Assembly (NCBI RefSeq): GCF_900110115.1
Contig: NZ_FOCM01000004.1
Location: 124,001 to 188,000 of the forward strand
Direction: 5' to 3'
Origin: Palleronia pelagia
Lineage (GTDB): Bacteria > Pseudomonadota > Alphaproteobacteria > Rhodobacterales > Rhodobacteraceae
Length of the DNA stretch: 64,000 nucleotides
In this document: piece after piece, positions 25,080-33,249 of the stretch
Position numbering within the stretch: position 1 is the first letter of the stretch
Layout: each line of letters starts with the position of its first letter
Notes under the pieces: model-generated
Seen by the model: the letters and a program-made list of their open reading frames with translations, nothing else
Told to the model about the DNA's origin: nothing
The model's database searches: none
Translations under genes and position numbers: made by a program

Positions 25080-26177
25080 TCACTTTTGCAGCCCGAGCGC
25101 CACCGATTGGCCCGTCCGCGCCGATTCCTGGGCGGCCAGCCCCATCTCGACCGCGCGCGCCCCGTCGCTGAGCGTCACCTCGACCGGCCCCTGTCCCAGC
25201 ACCACGTCGCGAAACCGGCTGTGCTGGTAGAAGGTCGACCCGTTGTGATCGCCCGCATCCAGCAGCGTGGGATCGACCGGAATCTCGACCACCTGCGGGC
25301 CACGCGGGCTGCGCGGGCTGACGATCACCTGCGGGACCGGCGGCGCGCCCAGATGCGCAGGCCAGAAGCGGCCCGGACCGGGGACCAGCGCCTCGATCTT
25401 GCCGGTGGGACCGGTGACGCTGATCTCTTCCTGGTAGCGCGAGCCTTCGGCGAACATGCACAGCTCGAGCATGGCACGGCTGCCATTGTCGAAATCCACG
25501 ATGACGTAGCCGTTGTCCCAGACATCGGGCGCGCGGCCCTCGTAGCTTTCGTCCTTGTGGTTCACGGACTGCCCCGCGCTCGCCATGACGCGCACCGGCT
25601 CGGCCCTCAGGATCACCCGCATCAGGTCGAAGAAATGGCAGCATTTCTCGACAAGCGTGCCGCCGGACCAGTCGTTGAAGCGGTTCCAGTGACCGACCTT
25701 GTGCAGGAAGGGAAAGCGGTGCTCGCGGATCGACAGCATAACGGGCCCGCCGGTGGCCGCGTCCACCTGCTCGATCAGGGCGGCGATGGGCGGCATATAG
25801 CGGTATTCCATGGCCACCCACACGGGGGCCGGGTAATCGAGGGCCGCCAGGCGGGCGGCCTGCGCCGCGTCGGTGTAAAGAGGCTTTTCCATCAGCAGGG
25901 GCAGCGGGCGGCGGGCCGCGATCTGCTCCATCTGGGCGACGTGCAGGTGGTTGGGCGACACCACCACCAGCGCGTCCAGTGGCTCGACCGCCAGCAGTGC
26001 GTCCACGCCCGGGCACATCTGGGCGCTGGGGGCCAGGGCGGCAGCAGCACGCGCCATGTCCGGGTCCGGCTCGAAGATGGCCGCGACCCGCGCCTCGGGC
26101 AGAAGGGCGATATTGCGCAGGTGCTCCTGCCCCATCATGCCGCAGCCGATCACGCCATAATTGATGATTCCTGACAT
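25080..26177 (-). CDS. Gfo/Idh/MocA family protein, possible NAD-dependent sugar hydrolase or dehydrogenase
   Basis: A 365-aa protein. The NAD motif GVIGCGMMG (8-16) and MEKPLYTD (96-103) are standard for the family. The second domain has [15 protein letters not shown] (172-186), where most dehydrogenases have GGG-x-x-D-x-G-x-H. The start at 26177 has a GGGACGGG site and lies 8 nt after the GntR gene. It is divergent from a monooxygenase/AKR/flavin reductase/TRAP operon. Members are usually sugar or inositol dehydrogenases, but NAD-dependent sulfoquinovosidases (GH188) also belong to this fold. The neighbours make that reading attractive; it is an inference. Confidence 0.78.
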
Positions 26178-26185
26178 TCCCGTCC

Positions 26186-26890
26186 CTATTTCAGTCGATT
26201 TACGTAAGATACCTTGTCCGGATCGAACCATGTCCGCGAATACTCGACCGGGGTGCCGTCCTGGGCCCAGGACAGGCGGTGCACATGGCCGACCGACGCG
26301 CCGCCGGCAAGACCCAGCGCCGCGCCCCAGCCCGGCAGGCGGCCGATGCCGACCCGGTCCTCGACGCGCAGGATGCGCAGGCCGAACTCGGTGAGATAGC
26401 TGCGGTAGAGCGACGGGCCGATCCGGTCGGCGCCGAAGCCCGGCGCGCGCCCGGCGTCGAGCCAGATCTCCTCGACGGCGGCCGGCGCGTCGTCCAGCAG
26501 GCGCAGGCGGCGGATACGATGGGCGTCGGGCGCGGCGCCGAAGTCGGGCGCATCGGACGGCTTCGCCAGCCGGTCCACCGAGATCAGCTGCGCGCCGGGC
26601 AGGCCGGGACCGGATGGCGTCTCGAGCCGGAAGAACCCGTAAAGCCCGCCGACACTGCGCACGCCGCGCACGTAGTTGCCCGACCCCTGGCGCCGTTCGA
26701 TCAGGCCCTGGTCGACCAGTTCCTGCAGCGCCTTGCGCAGGGTTCCGACGGCGATACCGTGGGTCGCGGCCATGGCGCGCTCGGGCGGAAGACGCTCGCC
26801 TTCGAGCAGCCGCCCCGCAGCGATATCGCGGGTCACGAGGTCCGCGATCTGGCGATAGAGAGGTGTCGGCGGCAGGTCTTGCATCGGCAT
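26186..26890 (-). CDS. GntR family regulator (HutC-type)
   Basis: A 234-aa protein. The N-terminal GntR winged helix (PLYRQIADLVTRDIAAGRL; LPPERAMAATHGIAVGTLRKAL) is followed by a UTRA-type sensor domain (about 85-230) with DAPAAVEEIWLDA and the C-terminal EYSRTWFDPDKVSY. Such sensors bind sugars, amino acids or similar small molecules. The start at 26890 is preferred over a long in-frame extension across the control region. A perfect 7+7 palindrome at 26911-26926, 21 nt before its start codon, is its likely operator, so it should repress itself and the divergent operon until inducer binds. Confidence 0.9.
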   Translation of the reverse strand: MPMQDLPPTPLYRQIADLVTRDIAAGRLLEGERLPPERAMAATHGIAVGTLRKALQELVDQGLIERRQGSGNYVRGVRSVGGLYGFFRLETPSGPGLPGAQLISVDRLAKPSDAPDFGAAPDAHRIRRLRLLDDAPAAVEEIWLDAGRAPGFGADRIGPSLYRSYLTEFGLRILRVEDRVGIGRLPGWGAALGLAGGASVGHVHRLSWAQDGTPVEYSRTWFDPDKVSYVNRLK

Positions 26891-26910
26891 CCGGAGAAAA
26901 TTGATGTAGT

Positions 26911-26926
26911 ATTGATGCACATCAAT
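26911..26926. promoter_or_regulatory. probable GntR operator
   Basis: ATTGATG-CA-CATCAAT is a palindrome with perfect 7-nt arms, placed between the divergent GntR and monooxygenase genes. An extra TTGATG half-site begins 10 nt upstream (26901). Size, symmetry and position fit a HutC-type GntR site. Confidence 0.65.
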
Positions 26927-26971
26927 GACCGTGCTAGGCAAGCGGAAATCCAAGCGGAAAGAGAGGCCCCC

Positions 26972-28126
26972 ATGACCGTCGTCCCCATCACGTCCGCCGA
27001 CCTGGACGCCGTCGAGGTCTCGTGGTTCTCGGCGCTCTGCTCGGACGACTACCAGTTCCTGGGCGTGCCCGACGGTGCGCTGCGGTCGAGCTGGGCGCAT
27101 TGCTCGTCGATCCTGAAAGAGGCCGAAGCCCAGGGCTTCCGCAACATCCTATGTCCGTCCTCGTACCAGGTCGGGCAGGACACGCTGAGCTTCGTTGCCG
27201 GCGGCGCAGCCATCACGGACCGGATCAACATGCTGGCCGCCATCCGCTGCGGCGAGATGCAGCCGATCATGCTGGCGCGCACGGTGGCCACGCTGGACCA
27301 CATGCTGGAAGGACGGCTGACGCTGAACGTGATCTCGTCGGACTTCCCGGGCGAGAAAGCCGAAAGCGCCTATCGCTACCAACGCTCGCGCGAGGTGGTC
27401 GAGATCCTCAAGCAGGCCTGGACCCAAGACGAAATCAACTTCAGCGGAGAAGTCTATGATTTCAAGGGTATTTCCACCGATCCCGCGAAGCCCTACCAGA
27501 CCGGCGGGCCGCTGCTTTATTTCGGCGGCTATTCGCCCCCCGCGCTGGACCTGTGCGGCGAGCACTGCGATGTCTACCTCATGTGGCCCGAGCCCAAGGA
27601 GCAGATCGCCGAACGCATGAAAGCCGTCAACGAAGTCGCTGAGAAATATGACAGAACGCTGGATTATGGCCTGCGTGTCCACGTCATCGTGCGCGACACC
27701 GAGGCCGAGGCGAAGGAATACGCCGAGCACCTGGTCAGCCAGCTCGACGACGAGTACGGCACGCTGATCCGTGACCGCGCCCATGACAGCACGTCGCTGG
27801 GCGTCAGCCACCAAGCCCGCGCGCGCGAGCTGGCCGACCAGTTCGGGTATGTCGAGCCGCACCTCTGGACAGGCATCGGGCGGGCCCGCTCGGGCTGCGG
27901 CGCGGCGCTGGTCGGCAGCACGGACCAGGTGCTGTCGGAAATCGAAGCTTACAAAAAAATGGGAATCCGGGCTTTCATCTTCTCGGGCTACCCGCATCTT
28001 GATGAGTGCAAGTCGGCGGGCCAGCGTCTCCTGCCGAACCTGGAAACCTGTTCCCTGCCGGAGGCCTATGGCCGTGTGCCGCAGGGGATGCCGCAGACCC
28101 CTCTCGGGGCAGGAGAACGCCGCTGA
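26972..28126 (+). CDS. LLM-class FMN-dependent monooxygenase, SsuD/SmoC-like
   Basis: A 384-aa luciferase-like (TIM-barrel) flavin monooxygenase. The C-terminal GCGAALVGSTDQV and SGYPHLDE (about 338-345) are hallmarks of the alkanesulfonate-monooxygenase branch; LEGRLTLNVISSD (about 112-124) is the flavin-site region. Such enzymes use reduced FMN from a partner reductase and O2 to break C-S bonds of sulfonates. The partner is probably the flavin reductase encoded at 29013. With an AKR in between, the set resembles SmoC-SmoB-SmoA of the sulfoquinovose monooxygenase pathway. The start at 26972 has AGAGAGG upstream. Its stop overlaps the AKR start. Confidence 0.82.
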   Translation: MTVVPITSADLDAVEVSWFSALCSDDYQFLGVPDGALRSSWAHCSSILKEAEAQGFRNILCPSSYQVGQDTLSFVAGGAAITDRINMLAAIRCGEMQPIMLARTVATLDHMLEGRLTLNVISSDFPGEKAESAYRYQRSREVVEILKQAWTQDEINFSGEVYDFKGISTDPAKPYQTGGPLLYFGGYSPPALDLCGEHCDVYLMWPEPKEQIAERMKAVNEVAEKYDRTLDYGLRVHVIVRDTEAEAKEYAEHLVSQLDDEYGTLIRDRAHDSTSLGVSHQARARELADQFGYVEPHLWTGIGRARSGCGAALVGSTDQVLSEIEAYKKMGIRAFIFSGYPHLDECKSAGQRLLPNLETCSLPEAYGRVPQGMPQTPLGAGERR

Positions 28127-29016
28127 TGCAACGTGTCGAGCTTGGAAATGATGTCAGCCTCAGCCGCATCCTGTACGGGATGTGGCGGCTGACCGACGAC
28201 GACACCGCGCCGGAGCATATCCGCGACAAGATCGAGGCCTGCCTGGACCAGGGCATCACCACCATGGACCAGGCCGACATCTACGGCGGCTACATGGCGG
28301 AAGAGGCGCTGGGGGCCGCGCTGACGCCGGAGCTGCGCAAGCGCATCGAGATCGTCACCAAATGCGACATCGTCGCGCCGGCCGGCCGCCACGCCAAGGC
28401 GCGGGTGAAGCACTACGACACCAGCCGCGCCCATATCGAGGCGTCGGTCGAACAGTCGCTGAAGCTGATGGGTATCGACGAGATCGACCTGCTGCTGATC
28501 CACCGCCCCGACCCCTTCATGGATCACCACGAGACCGGCGCGGTTCTGGACGAGCTGGTGGCCTCGGGCAAGGTCCGCGCCGTGGGCGTTTCGAACTTCA
28601 GGCGCCATGACTGGACGCTGCTGCAATCGGCCATGAAGACCAAGCTGGTCGCCAACCAGATCGAGATGTCGCTGGCCGAGATCGCGCCCTTCACCAACGG
28701 CGACCTGGCCCTCATCCAGGAATTCGGCGCCGCGCCCATGGCGTGGTCGCCCCTTGGCGGCGGCGAGCTGATGACCGGCAAGGGCGGCCACACCAAGCTG
28801 CGCACCCGGCTGAGCGAGTATTCCCAGCGCGAAGGCTGCGACATGGCGGCCGTGGCCGTGGCCTGGCTGATGGCGCACCCGGCGGGCATCCTTCCGGTGA
28901 TGGGCACCAACAACATCAAGCGCATCAAGACGCTGGCCAAGGCCGCCGACGTGAGCCTCAGCCGCGAGGACTGGTTCGACCTCTACACCTGCGCCCTGGG
29001 CCGCGAGGTGGCGTGA
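28126..29016 (+). CDS. aldo/keto reductase (YdhF/SmoB-like)
   Basis: A 296-aa NAD(P)H-dependent TIM-barrel reductase. The catalytic tetrad is visible: D51 and Y56 in QADIYGGY, K79 in VTKCD, H126 in LLIHRPDP. The start overlaps the monooxygenase stop (TGATG), and its own end overlaps the flavin reductase start (GTGA), so the three are translated as a unit. If the monooxygenase removes sulfite from a sugar sulfonate, the product is a sugar dialdehyde, and this reductase would convert it to the plain sugar as SmoB does. Family call firm, substrate inferred. Confidence 0.85.
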   Translation: MQRVELGNDVSLSRILYGMWRLTDDDTAPEHIRDKIEACLDQGITTMDQADIYGGYMAEEALGAALTPELRKRIEIVTKCDIVAPAGRHAKARVKHYDTSRAHIEASVEQSLKLMGIDEIDLLLIHRPDPFMDHHETGAVLDELVASGKVRAVGVSNFRRHDWTLLQSAMKTKLVANQIEMSLAEIAPFTNGDLALIQEFGAAPMAWSPLGGGELMTGKGGHTKLRTRLSEYSQREGCDMAAVAVAWLMAHPAGILPVMGTNNIKRIKTLAKAADVSLSREDWFDLYTCALGREVA

Positions 29017-29525
29017 CCGTGGCGCCGCCCGAGCCTTTCCAGCGCGCCGACCTGGGCGACGCGCGCGCCCTGCGACAGGCCTTGGGGCGGTTCGCCACCG
29101 GTGTGACCGTGGTGACCACCGATGCCGAGACCGGTCCGCTGGGCATTACTGCGAACAGCTTTTCATCTGTCTCGCTGGACCCGCCGCTGGTGCTGTGGTC
29201 GCCCGCCAAGGCCTCGCGCCGCTTCGGCCCGTTCACCGAATGCGATGCTTTCGCGATCCACGTCCTTGGGGATTCCCAGTCCGAACTGGCGAAGAATTTC
29301 GTCACCGAGGGCGATATCTTCGACCGTCTGGATTGGTCGCGCGCCGAGGACGGAACGCCCCTGATCGAGGGCTGCCTCGCGCGGTTCTATTGCCGGATGC
29401 ACGCGATTCACGACGCGGGCGATCACGCGATCGTCGTCGGCCGGGTCGCAGGCGCGACCTATCGCGAGGGTGCGCCACTGGTCTTTTCAGGCGGCCAATT
29501 CGGGCTGTTCAGCGGTCTGGATTGA
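29013..29525 (+). CDS. flavin reductase domain protein (SmoA/RutF-like)
   Basis: A 170-aa protein from a GTG overlapping the AKR stop. FATGVTVVTTDAETGPLGITANSFSSVSLDPPLVLW (split over about 23-58) is the FMN-binding core of the flavin reductase-like family, and AIVVGRVAGATYREGAPLVFSGGQFG is its end. It should reduce FMN or FAD with NAD(P)H and hand it to the monooxygenase at 26972, forming a two-component system. Placement directly within the operon supports this pairing. Confidence 0.88.
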   Translation: MTVAPPEPFQRADLGDARALRQALGRFATGVTVVTTDAETGPLGITANSFSSVSLDPPLVLWSPAKASRRFGPFTECDAFAIHVLGDSQSELAKNFVTEGDIFDRLDWSRAEDGTPLIEGCLARFYCRMHAIHDAGDHAIVVGRVAGATYREGAPLVFSGGQFGLFSGLD

Positions 29526-29589
29526 CGCCAGACTGAGGCACGGGACGACCCCGGATCAACCGGGGCGTCCATAAAGGGAGGATCGGCGC

Positions 29590-30171
29590 ATGCGCGTCCT
29601 GAAGGGCCTTTTGTGGCCTTTCCAGACATGGAACGACTTGGTGCTGCCCGTCGGGCGCATCGTCGCCATCATTGCGATCGCCCTGATGGTGGTGGCGATC
29701 CTGGTGCAGGTCTTTTTCCGCTACGTCCTCAACAACGCCCTGCCTTGGCCGGACGAGGCCGCGCGCTTCATGATGCTGTGGATGACCGGCCTGATGGCGC
29801 CCATGGCCTATCGCCGGGGCGGGTTTGTGGCCATCGACACGCTGCCCATGATGCTGCCGCGTGCAGCGGCCGCCGCGCTGTCCATCGCGCTGCTGCTGAT
29901 CGCGGGCATCGTGCTGGCGGTGGCCGTGCGCATCGGCTGGTCCGAGGTCACGGGCTTCGGCGGCCGGTTCGCCACCGCGTCCCTGTACCTGCCCCTGCCC
30001 GACGGCTGGTTTCGCATCCCGCGCAGCTGGATGATGGCAAGCCTTCTGGTGGGTGTCGTGCTGCTGCTGATCGTGAATATCGAGCTGATCCTGCGCAGCA
30101 TCCTGCGGCTGTTGGGGGCGCGGGACCTGAAGGATCTTGCCCCCGCCGAAGAAGAGATCATGGCGGAATGA
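29590..30171 (+). CDS. TRAP transporter small permease subunit (DctQ type)
   Basis: A 193-aa membrane protein with four hydrophobic segments. RYVLNNALPWPDEAARFMMLWM (about 42-63) is the DctQ family core, including the conserved W-x-E/D block. GGAGGATCGGCGC precedes the start. With the large permease and the binding protein downstream it forms a complete tripartite TRAP importer driven by an ion gradient. It follows the flavin reductase after 64 nt on the same strand, so it is likely the same operon. Confidence 0.9.
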   Translation: MRVLKGLLWPFQTWNDLVLPVGRIVAIIAIALMVVAILVQVFFRYVLNNALPWPDEAARFMMLWMTGLMAPMAYRRGGFVAIDTLPMMLPRAAAAALSIALLLIAGIVLAVAVRIGWSEVTGFGGRFATASLYLPLPDGWFRIPRSWMMASLLVGVVLLLIVNIELILRSILRLLGARDLKDLAPAEEEIMAE

Positions 30172-30172
30172 C

Positions 30173-31462
30173 ATGCTGATCTGGTTCCTGCCCGTCTTCC
30201 TGGTGTTCCTGGTCATCGGCCTGCCGGTCTTCTTCGGGCTGCTGGCCGCGCCCGGAATCCTGCTTTGGCTCAACGGGCAGGAACGCGATATCACGCTGCT
30301 TTACCGCAATGTCTATAACGGGATGGACAGCTTCCCGCTGATGGCGATCCCGTTTTTCATGCTGGCGGGAGAGCTGATGAACAAGGGCGGCATCACCGAG
30401 CGGCTGGTCGAATTCAGCCAGGCGCTGATGGGCCACCTGCGGGGCGGGCTGGCGCATGTGAACGTTCTGTCGTCGATGCTGTTCGCCGGACTGTCTGGCT
30501 CGGCCGTCGCCGATACCTCGGCGCTGGGCTCGATGCTGATACCGGCGATGGAGAAGCAGGGCTATACCCGCAAGTTCGCCGCAGCCATCACGGCCGCAAG
30601 CTCGGTCATCGGGCCGATCATCCCGCCCTCGGGCATCATGATCATCTACGCCTACGTGATGGGCGAATCCGTGGCCGCGCTGTTCCTCGCCGGGATCGTG
30701 CCGGGCGCCCTTGTGGGCATCGGGCTGATGCTGGTCATCAAGGTGATGGCCGACAAGTACGACTTCCCCGTCGCGGGCCGCAAGACGACCTGGGGCGAGC
30801 GCGGGCAAGCCAGCCTCAAGGCGTTCTTCCCGCTGATGACGCCGGTCATCATCATGGGCGGCATCCTCGCGGGCGTGTTCACCCCGACCGAGGCCGCCGC
30901 CATCGCCGTGGCCTACGCGCTGTTCATCGGGCTTTTCGTGCTGCGGACGCTGAAATTCAGCGAGATCCCCGAGGTGCTGAGCCGCGCGGCGACGACCTCG
31001 GCGGTGGTGCTGCTGCTGGTGGGCGCGGCCATGGCGTTCAAGACCGTCGTGTCCCTGTCACACGCGCCGGAGATCATGGCGGACTATATCCTGTCGCTGT
31101 CGGAAAACCCGCTGATGCTGCTGTTCCTGATCAACCTGCTGCTGTTCGCGGTGGGCATGTTCCTGGACGCCGGACCGGCCATCATCATACTCGGGCCGAT
31201 CTTGGGGCCGATCTTCGTCGACCTGGGCGTCGATCCCATCCACTTCGCCATCATCATGTCGGTGAACCTGACCGTGGGCCTCGCCACGCCGCCCATGGGG
31301 CTGGTGCTGTTCGTCGCCTCGTCGGTCTCGGGCGAACGGGTCGAGGCGATTTCCAAGGCGATCCTGCCGTTCCTGGCCGTCGAGATCCTGGTGATCTTCC
31401 TCATCACCTACGTCCCCGGCATTTCCATGACGATCCCGCGCCTGACGGGCTTCGCGAACTGA
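30173..31462 (+). CDS. TRAP transporter large permease subunit (DctM type)
   Basis: About 429 aa from the ATG at 30173, one base after the small-subunit stop. About twelve hydrophobic segments; PLMAIPFFMLAGELMN, SGSAVADTSALGSMLIPAM and FTPTEAAAIAVAYA are the DctM signatures. It carries substrate across the inner membrane together with DctQ. The N-terminus MLIWFLPVFLVFLVI begins the first helix directly, which supports this start over an upstream in-frame one. Confidence 0.93.
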   Translation: MLIWFLPVFLVFLVIGLPVFFGLLAAPGILLWLNGQERDITLLYRNVYNGMDSFPLMAIPFFMLAGELMNKGGITERLVEFSQALMGHLRGGLAHVNVLSSMLFAGLSGSAVADTSALGSMLIPAMEKQGYTRKFAAAITAASSVIGPIIPPSGIMIIYAYVMGESVAALFLAGIVPGALVGIGLMLVIKVMADKYDFPVAGRKTTWGERGQASLKAFFPLMTPVIIMGGILAGVFTPTEAAAIAVAYALFIGLFVLRTLKFSEIPEVLSRAATTSAVVLLLVGAAMAFKTVVSLSHAPEIMADYILSLSENPLMLLFLINLLLFAVGMFLDAGPAIIILGPILGPIFVDLGVDPIHFAIIMSVNLTVGLATPPMGLVLFVASSVSGERVEAISKAILPFLAVEILVIFLITYVPGISMTIPRLTGFAN

Positions 31463-31483
31463 ACTCAACAAGGGAGAGAAAGA

Positions 31484-32551
31484 ATGTTGAAACACCTGAC
31501 CACCGCCGCGATCTCCGCGGCCCTGCTTGGCGGCACGGCCATCGCCGCCTACGCCCAGGACACCATCACCCTGCGCGCCACCGCGAACTCGAACGAGAAC
31601 GACGAGGACTATGACGGCCTGGTCGTCTTCAAGAACTTCGTCGAGCAGGCCAGCAACGGCGCCATCGAAGTCGAGATGTTCATCGGCACCCAGCTCTGCT
31701 CGAACGGGGCGGAATGCATGCAGGGCGTCGCCGACGGCTCCATCGACATCTACGTGTCGACCTCGGGCGGCACCTCGGGCATCTTCCCCTTCGTGCAGGT
31801 GCTGGACCTGCCCTACCTGATGGCGAACGACCGCGTGGCCGAGGGCGTGCTGGAATCCGGCACCGAGTTCGTGACCACCATGCAGGACATGGTCGAGGAG
31901 ACGTCGGGCGGCGCGATCAAGCTGATGACCATCGGCAACACCGGCGGCTGGCGCAACTTCGCCAACACCCAGCGCCGGGTCGAGACGCCCGCCGACCTGG
32001 AAGGGCTGAAGATCCGGACCGTCGTGGCCGACCTGCCGCAGGAGCTGGTCCGCGCGCTGGGGGCCTCGCCCACCCCGATCCCGTGGCCCGAGCTGTTCAC
32101 CTCGTTCCAGACGGGCGTTGTCGAAGGCTCGAAGAACGGCATCACCGACATCATGGGCATGAAGTTCCCCGATGCGGGCCTGCAATACCTGACGCTGGAC
32201 GGCCACGCCTACATGGGCGCCCTGTGGTTCATGAACGGCGAGCGGTTCAACGGCATGTCGGACGAGCAGAAGCGCGTCATCGTGGATGGCTTCTACCAGC
32301 TGCAACAGGCGACCTTCGCCTCGCCCAAGCGCAAGTCCATCGAAGCCTACCAGGCGTTCCAGGACGGCGGCGGTGATCTCTACGTGCCGACCCCGGACCA
32401 GAAGGCCATGTTCGCCGAGGCCGCCCAGCCGGTCTACGAGTGGTTCCAGCAGAACGTGGACGGCGGCGAAGCAGTCTACAACGCCATGACCGCCACCGTG
32501 GAAGAGGTCGAGGCCGAGATCGAAGCCCAGCGCGAGGCGACGATCCAGTAA
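31484..32551 (+). CDS. TRAP transporter substrate-binding protein (DctP type)
   Basis: A 355-aa periplasmic protein with signal peptide (MLKHLTTAAISAALLGGTAIAAYAQ). The anion-binding Arg of DctP proteins is present in GLKIRTVVADL (R178), followed by PTPIPWPELFTSFQTGVVEG, the usual ligand-pocket block. That Arg normally pairs with a carboxylate and could equally hold a sulfonate. AAGGGAGAGAAAGA precedes the start, and an intrinsic terminator follows, closing the operon. It captures the substrate for the permease genes upstream; ligand not known. Confidence 0.92.
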   Translation: MLKHLTTAAISAALLGGTAIAAYAQDTITLRATANSNENDEDYDGLVVFKNFVEQASNGAIEVEMFIGTQLCSNGAECMQGVADGSIDIYVSTSGGTSGIFPFVQVLDLPYLMANDRVAEGVLESGTEFVTTMQDMVEETSGGAIKLMTIGNTGGWRNFANTQRRVETPADLEGLKIRTVVADLPQELVRALGASPTPIPWPELFTSFQTGVVEGSKNGITDIMGMKFPDAGLQYLTLDGHAYMGALWFMNGERFNGMSDEQKRVIVDGFYQLQQATFASPKRKSIEAYQAFQDGGGDLYVPTPDQKAMFAEAAQPVYEWFQQNVDGGEAVYNAMTATVEEVEAEIEAQREATIQ

Positions 32552-32662: not shown

Positions 32663-33130
32663 CTACCCCGAATCGCTCAGGGTGCTGCGCCGGTCCTCGA
32701 TCCAGCGGATCGCGACGAGGCCCAGCGCCAGCGCCAGCACGGCCGCCGCGATCCCCATGAGGAAGCTGCCGGTCGCGTTGTCGACCTCGAGCACGATGAG
32801 CTTGCGCACCACCGCCAGCATGCCGATCGTGATGACGGTGCGAAGCTGCCCGAAACCGTGGTCGCCCAACACCATCTGCCGGATCGAATGCGCGAGCTCC
32901 ACCGCGATGACCGCGGCCAGGACCCGGTCGAACAACGTCTGGAATTGCACGTAATCCAGCTCGGCATTCTCGGCCAGCGTGACGCCGATGACCGTGCGCA
33001 GGAAAGAATACACCGCCAGCAAAACGACCATCATCATGCCGATCAGGATGACGCCCGAGACCAGTCTCTCGAACCAGCCATACGCCCGGAGGACGGGACT
33101 TCTGCTTTCTTCGGCGCCCTTGTCGGCCAT
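32663..33130 (-). CDS. PsiE-like small membrane protein
   Basis: A 155-aa inner-membrane protein with four hydrophobic segments and length typical of the phosphate-starvation-inducible PsiE family. RLVSGVILIGMMMVVLLAVYSFLRTVIG, AELAHSIRQ-like helix (VELAHSIRQMVLGDHG) and RTVITIGMLAVVRKLIVLE match the family pattern. Function is unknown; no Pho-type promoter was recognised. The ATG at 33130 is preferred over an in-frame extension. Convergent with the TRAP operon and divergent from lysC. Confidence 0.75.
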   Translation of the reverse strand: MADKGAEESRSPVLRAYGWFERLVSGVILIGMMMVVLLAVYSFLRTVIGVTLAENAELDYVQFQTLFDRVLAAVIAVELAHSIRQMVLGDHGFGQLRTVITIGMLAVVRKLIVLEVDNATGSFLMGIAAAVLALALGLVAIRWIEDRRSTLSDSG

Positions 33131-33249
33131 GGAGGTATCGCTCTCCCTTCGGCAGGCCACCTAGGGCGCGATGGCCTCGGGGCGAGCCGACGCTTGCGCC
33201 CGCCCGGCCCAAAACATACACACGCGCGGAATGTCAGGAAGGGGGCGCC

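Follow-up and report, generated by a model that had tools for sequence, protein, structure and literature searches.

A sulfoquinovose operon of Palleronia pelagia with a TRAP transporter, and the likely sharing of its importer family by two sulfoquinovose pathways

By what route does sulfoquinovose (SQ), the sulfur sugar of plant and algal membranes produced on a scale of 10 billion tons a year (PMC10755693), enter roseobacters, which are among its users (PMC13372026)? The literature that we searched does not state it in its text (papers are cited throughout for the part of their text that was searchable), and a locus on contig NZ_FOCM01000004.1 of Palleronia pelagia (source genome of 3.85 Mb in 25 contigs) suggests an answer. 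In a stretch of 64,000 nt of this contig, which we call the window, positions 25080-32551 carry genes for a GH188 hydrolase and a GntR regulator on the minus strand, divergent from smoC-smoB-smoA-dctQ-dctM-dctP on the plus strand, as seen from open reading frames (ORFs), Pfam and NCBIfam. We consider it very likely that this is a complete operon of the SQ monooxygenase (sulfo-SMO) route, including the steps proposed below, in which a tripartite ATP-independent periplasmic (TRAP) transporter takes the place of an ATP-driven importer. It is also probable, although we are clearly less confident of this, that the transporter represents a dedicated TRAP family for intact sulfoquinovosides in marine Alphaproteobacteria, a portable one that has several times joined two unrelated SQ routes (sulfo-SMO and one resembling the sulfoglycolytic Embden-Meyerhof-Parnas route, sulfo-EMP) and that forms a main roseobacter door, often together with a di-haem peroxidase.

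Enzymes of the operon

Gene families were assigned by Pfam/NCBIfam and matches to solved chains by phmmer against the PDB, and the starts of the Gfo/Idh, GntR, monooxygenase, aldo/keto reductase and DctM genes were chosen among in-frame starts. The features are:

25080..26177, minus strand: GH188 NAD-dependent sulfoquinovosidase by kinship (SqgA-like, Gfo/Idh fold), 365 aa; phmmer best 8zn9, with sulfonate site
26186..26890, minus strand: gntR, GntR/UTRA regulator, probable SQ-responsive repressor; PF00392 and PF07702, divergent to smoC; start chosen as the ATG at 26890
26901..26925, between gntR and smoC: candidate operator TTGAT-N6-TTGAT-N4-ATCAA
26972..28126, plus strand: smoC, putative SQ monooxygenase dependent on reduced flavin mononucleotide (FMNH2), luciferase-like, 384 aa; phmmer to 7oh2/7olf
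28126..29016, plus strand: smoB, aldo/keto reductase (predicted 6-dehydroglucose to glucose); phmmer to 7bby/7bbz
29013..29525, plus strand: smoA, flavin reductase predicted to supply FMNH2; PF01613, 133 bits
29590..30171, plus strand: dctQ, TRAP small permease; PF04290, 77 bits
30173..31462, plus strand: dctM, TRAP large permease; PF06808, 405 bits, and TIGR00786 above cut-off
31484..32551, plus strand: dctP, TRAP solute-binding protein, proposed binder of SQ or SQ glycosides; PF03480, 177 bits

An original prediction, made from the letters of the window, had described this gene order and its stop/start overlaps, and both held up with exact coordinates. In the ORF calls, smoC and smoB overlap by 1 base and smoB and smoA by 4, while gaps of 64, 1 and 21 bases precede dctQ, dctM and dctP, respectively; the next long ORF past dctP (32663-33160) lies on the opposite, minus strand. 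DctP, DctQ and DctM are present together (PF03480, PF04290 and PF06808), which makes a full TRAP set.

The monooxygenase scored 703 bits against 7oh2 and 696 against 7olf, compared with 187-190 bits against three alkanesulfonate monooxygenase chains, and it is identical to 7oh2 in 306 of 384 alignment columns (80%). The displayed PDB names are generic or misleading, both for these two chains, which we take to be SmoC, and for 7bby and 7bbz, presumably SmoB. A plain alkanesulfonate monooxygenase (SsuD) is ruled out by the scores, which make that kinship distant, and the grouping with non-sulfonate luciferase-like enzymes that would have counted against the original prediction was not found. Across 248 genomes of the family, SmoC matches at E 1e-30 or better have at least 74% or at most 36% identity, with nothing between, and the window protein is 99% identical to that of Palleronia salina. 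Relatives of 50-53% identity, intermediate between true SmoC and SsuD, were seen on plasmids of Emticicia, Spirosoma and Sphingomonas (NC_018745.1, NZ_CP089541.1, NZ_CP089539.1 and NZ_CP032828.1). SmoB scored 394 bits against 7bby/7bbz, the next PDB chain reaching 218, and the best NCBIfam match of SmoA is FerA, at 216 bits under that family's cut-off of 260. A sulfo-SMO-positive genome has been defined by SmoB and SmoC within 10 ORFs, importer type being no part of that definition (PMC13372026); in the window, SmoB, SmoA and SmoC, the enzymes that the route requires, share one operon. By sequence, each gene is kin to the sulfo-SMO set and would be expected to perform the corresponding reaction in P. 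pelagia.

What of the Gfo/Idh protein, which the original prediction saw as opening SQ glycosides? Its best NCBIfam match is inositol 2-dehydrogenase (97 bits, for a cut-off of 355), as would suit an ordinary inositol-type dehydrogenase in an operon that handles free SQ only; this is, however, the least probable of the alternatives weighed here, since the protein scored 532 bits against 8zn9, 390 against 8qc3 and 378 against 8qc2, with the next chain at 63. The structures 8QC2 and 8QC3 belong to FlSqgA and ArSqgA, sulfoquinovosidases placed in the new family GH188 (PMC10755693), and their sulfonate-binding residues (R166, L170 and K172 in 8QC2 numbering; PMC11465081) are kept in the window protein as RFPFLHK, in alignment with 8qc2 and 8qc3. 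All 103 rows of the GH188 tree have this R-x3-L-x-K site, which also speaks against a mere dehydrogenase. No essential difference was seen between the protein and SqgA, which it matches over its full length, its nearest solved chain being 8zn9. The GH188 identity therefore stands, as far as sequence can tell, whereas the novelty does not, because GH188 has been published within Roseobacter sulfo-SMO and is near-universal in such clusters of marine Roseobacter bacteria (PMC10755693). The absence of any GH31 match in the source genome, which makes GH188 the sole sulfoquinovosidase candidate found, fits that statement. Judged by eye, the nucleotide-binding motif begins before residue 16, too near the N terminus for an export signal to precede it, and the hydrolase is presumably cytosolic. 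Because it also needs NAD, glycosides must enter the cell whole, and the TRAP transporter, if it is the importer, would have to admit them.

The three core enzymes in one operon are also what the sulfo-SMO systems of Agrobacterium, rhizobia and roseobacters have in common with the window. In Agrobacterium tumefaciens C58, however, they are accompanied by an ATP-binding cassette (ABC) system whose binding protein takes SQ-glycerol (PMC8873060), in the place of which the window has dctQMP directly after smoA, and the window further differs by GH188 in a genome with no GH31 found.

A TRAP family beside two SQ pathways

How common is this arrangement? We took the best 80 of 547 SmoC loci in named genomes. 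In 46 of them smoA is followed by TRAP genes (DctM and DctP are both present in 44, and the other two run off their contig); a sugar-type ABC binding protein lies somewhere in the stretch in 14, and the remaining 20, some on short contigs, show neither. Eleven plasmid records have SmoC of at least 76% identity, and in 10 of them a DctP of at least 64% is encoded no more than 5 kb from smoC. With such counts the TRAP genes beside smoC are not a chance neighbour, and the original prediction of a TRAP transporter in place of an ABC one is right about the replacement but too weak in calling it a variant. In a sample of 385 genomes of the class, five from outside the window's family show a SmoC match at E 1e-150 or better, with TRAP adjoining in three, a contig break in one and no TRAP in one. 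On the SmoC tree (85 of 94 rows scored), TRAP presence and absence need 12 changes, at least three of them forced by starred branches, and the annotation of three plasmid records gives a TRAP operon in Ruegeria sp. TM1040 and Rhizobium sp. SL42 and the ABC form in Marinovum algicola. TRAP-less SmoC loci with a sugar-type ABC transporter often have a second Gfo/Idh gene (L077:13276-19019, L008 and L124:12530-18249). We do not claim these ABC transporters as SQ importers; the L077 binding protein is not close to any solved chain, and at E 1e-10 or better its PDB matches were limited to an arabino-oligosaccharide binder and one further sugar-binding protein.

Following DctP itself, rather than SmoC, through the 248 genomes leads to a second pathway. 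The best DctP matches show 63-100% identity in 86 genomes, 51 and 48% in two others and at most 35% in the remainder, and SmoC at 74% or more is found in 106 (in one, G216, split in two pieces by a stop). Both occur in 63 genomes, within 8 kb of each other in 59 and on different contigs in four, in two of which (L117 and L122) the TRAP genes sit with SmoB and SmoA at the end of a contig; 43 genomes have SmoC only and 23 DctP only. In 16 of these 23, the TRAP genes belong to a sulfo-EMP-like cluster that also encodes an isomerase, a PfkB-type kinase and a GH188 protein of another GH188 clade. Of the 16 stretches, some of which end early, 15 include an aldolase, 13 a DeoR regulator, 10 a mutarotase-like gene and nine an aldehyde dehydrogenase; these families were assigned on a single copy, L102, together with three individual genes taken from two further loci. 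The L102 cluster holds PfkB, a DeoC/LacD aldolase, an aldose epimerase and a dehydrogenase resembling succinate-semialdehyde dehydrogenase, and its isomerase (one copy) has the SQ isomerase SftI as sole NCBIfam match, at 252 bits; as this is below the cut-off of 700, we call the clusters sulfo-EMP-like. They are sister clusters to the operon of the window, with which they have both the TRAP family and GH188 in common (GH188 has been described in sulfo-EMP clusters; PMC10755693), but differ from it in their kinase-aldolase-isomerase route, DeoR in most loci and lack of SmoABC. Five more of the 23 (L091, L094, L103, L109 and L111) keep pieces of the SMO operon with no trace of SmoC, and two (L092 and L110) show neither SQ module. 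In four of the five (L091, L103, L109 and L111), smoB and/or smoA remain with the TRAP genes, L111 still having gntR and GH188 as well; the loss of smoC may reflect decay, or another desulfonating enzyme may lie elsewhere. All in all, in 82 of 86 genomes the DctP group has SQ genes, from either module, as neighbours.

If the transporter belonged to one route, DctP would be expected to sort by route, so mixing of SMO and EMP rows means that the importer is not tied to either. When 76 rows were placed on a DctP tree, those of SMO and EMP loci interleaved inside a single clade with a support of 100 in the Shimodaira-Hasegawa-like approximate likelihood ratio test (SH-aLRT), and the two labels need 10 changes overall; EMP against all other rows needs 11, five of which are forced by starred branches, and one EMP row (L115, with the DctP of 48%) falls outside the main clade. 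After removal of outgroups, unassigned rows and nine near-copies, a thinned tree of 53 rows still needs seven changes. Route labels are more clustered than shuffled labels in both trees, which makes exchange occasional rather than free. By contrast, in a GH188 tree of 103 rows, SMO and EMP are split by a single change at SH-aLRT 100 (under a simpler model, for which the program warns of two long EMP branches). Since GH188 splits by route while DctP intermixes, the hydrolase moves with its pathway and the importer between pathways. For exchange of DctP between routes, tree support is modest.

The binding protein and its likely cargo

What does DctP carry? Upstream, the two routes have nothing in common but SQ and its glycosides, which makes these the likely cargo, whereas sulfolactate or 2,3-dihydroxypropane-1-sulfonate would make no sense in an SMO operon, since it makes sulfite and glucose. 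The AlphaFold2 model of DctP (predicted template modelling score 0.81; mean predicted local distance difference test 80; weak at residues 1-24 and 201-225) has TRAP binding proteins as its Foldseek matches, with the isethionate-binding IseP (8t9t) at rank 3. IseP (PDB 8T9T) binds the sulfonate of isethionate via Arg156, Arg177 and Asn217 (PMC11668362), which align with R157, R178 and N218 of DctP, invariant in 53 of 53 rows, so that the two proteins, despite 22% identity in structural alignment, share a fold and an anion triad. Tyr153, Asn98 and His244 of IseP align with G154, G96 and A246 of DctP, again invariant in 53 of 53 rows, and these small residues would leave more room and suit a larger ligand, an argument drawn from the alignment in view of the weak parts of the model. 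DctP further differs from IseP by Cys72 and Cys78 (31697-31717), six residues apart and invariant in the same 53 rows. The pair has no counterpart at these places in the five solved relatives that were aligned, and likely forms a disulfide.

It could be argued that the enzymes are a true sulfo-SMO set and the TRAP genes merely co-transcribed, importing an unrelated carboxylate. The Arg/Arg/Asn triad is the usual carboxylate site and common among carboxylate-binding TRAP proteins (PMC11668362), so it permits sulfonate binding in DctP and is no proof by itself; the source genome encodes 18 DctP proteins, which makes a TRAP neighbour no rarity, and 34 of the 80 SmoC loci show no TRAP. We nevertheless regard a carboxylate cargo as unlikely, in view of the 82 of 86 genomes in which this DctP family lies beside SQ module genes, of its intermixing between SMO and EMP modules and of the two annotated TRAP operons, in which no other importer is named alongside. 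As far as sequence reaches, a DctP family that follows two SQ pathways favours the SQ importer of the original prediction, which is well supported as a whole, over a carboxylate transporter.

Several further points weigh against our reading or limit its support: (i) the Fisher p of 1.7e-12 for the co-occurrence of SmoC and DctP ignores shared ancestry, (ii) the DctP group is missing from 43 of the 106 SmoC genomes, so TRAP is not essential to the sulfo-SMO pathway, these absences being soft because at most eight DctP candidates were scored per genome, (iii) the sample of 80 named loci is partly the same as that of 248 genomes, so that the two are not independent, (iv) four of the 86 DctP genomes have no SQ gene beside TRAP on the available stretch (G014, G102 on a 4-kb contig, G185 and G201), and (v) the rejection of a single EMP clade in the thinned DctP tree, by the approximately unbiased test at p 0.03, comes from groups fixed before the tree but from a thinning done after the first tree was seen, and only two changes are forced there.

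The operon might instead serve a sulfonate other than SQ, for example sulfofucose or a sulfo-sugar akin to it, the substrate specificity of SmoC being assigned by sequence only. This is highly improbable, for SmoC, SmoB and the GH188 protein each match best to chains of the SQ pathway (an attribution that, for SmoC and SmoB, we presume), and the isomerase in the EMP-like cluster of L102 resembles the SQ isomerase SftI. A sulfofucose route does exist in a Paracoccus, but with other enzymes and a putative ABC importer (PMC12421959).

With SQ or its glycosides as the likely cargo, the operon could work as follows: (i) in the periplasm, DctP would bind SQ or one of its glycosides, for instance SQ-glycerol, (ii) DctQM would import it on an ion gradient, (iii) the cytosolic GH188 enzyme, with NAD as catalytic cofactor, would free SQ, (iv) SmoC, fed with FMNH2 by SmoA, would cut the C-S bond to give sulfite and 6-dehydroglucose, (v) SmoB would reduce the latter to glucose and (vi) GntR, at the TTGAT operator, would control both divergent transcripts.

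Is such an importer new? Sulfo-SMO in roseobacters and GH188 within it are already published; the evidence for sharing, DctP with two SQ routes, is new as far as our literature search reached. No TRAP importer for SQ was found named in the searchable text of papers, whose figures and supplements, together with Liu et al. 2023 and Sharma et al. 2022 (the latter reportedly a sulfo-SMO paper), fell outside this search and may already draw a TRAP gene. The word 'TRAP' is absent from the main text of PMC10755693, PMC13372026, PMC12890257, PMC9594981 and PMC8873060, and in other papers that were read, 'trap' referred to an ion trap or a column or was used as a verb. TRAP systems have been proposed beside catabolic genes for taurine and sulfolactate (PMC10507020) and for isethionate (PMC6386719), but these are small C2-C3 sulfonates, not sulfo-sugars, and in the searchable text of both papers SQ appears only in the reference lists. 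TRAP import, if true, would add a sulfo-sugar to these cargoes, tie SQ uptake to an ion gradient instead of ATP and supply one marker gene for SQ uptake by either pathway. The shared importer makes the cargo directly testable.

Regulation and neighbouring genes

The inner palindrome of the candidate operator (26912-26925) occurs once in the window, for 0.01 expected, and at four places in the source genome. In 31 of 91 loci, TTGAT-N4-ATCAA occurs in the 140 bases that precede smoC, and half-sites are about eight times denser in this region (2.43, against 0.31 per random 140-base stretch). An operator-like site upstream of another TRAP gene of the source genome (C10:262269) was rejected as part of the regulon, since that gene lies beside an AraC-like regulator (by eye) and outside the DctP group. 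In the eight EMP-like loci with the upstream region of dctQ inspected, the palindrome was not seen (by eye); together with DeoR in 13 of 16 loci, this suggests that the importer is probably wired to another regulator in EMP-like clusters.

Other genes recur around the TRAP operon. The gene of a MauG-like di-haem cytochrome c peroxidase (PF03150, assigned on L102) is found downstream of dctP, in the same orientation, in all 46 loci that have both; examples are L125:15843-17072 of Ruegeria sp. TM1040 and its counterparts in relatives. Where at least 8 kb downstream is available, the peroxidase gene occurs in 26 of 39 TRAP loci, against none of 33 TRAP-less SmoC loci, and it is present in 14 of the 16 EMP-like loci; the source genome has a homologue of 60% identity on another contig (C5:213813-215033). 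A 'putative sulfate exporter', possibly a sulfite exit, follows the TRAP operon in Rhizobium sp. SL42 (L123:14926-15885) and Ruegeria sp. TM1040 (L125:17079-18104), and the source genome has one PF03601 protein, on another contig (C10:133174-134061). In a few loci, paired YdjC-like and NagB-like genes lie beside the TRAP genes (L113:9697-11390 and L110:6753-8512).

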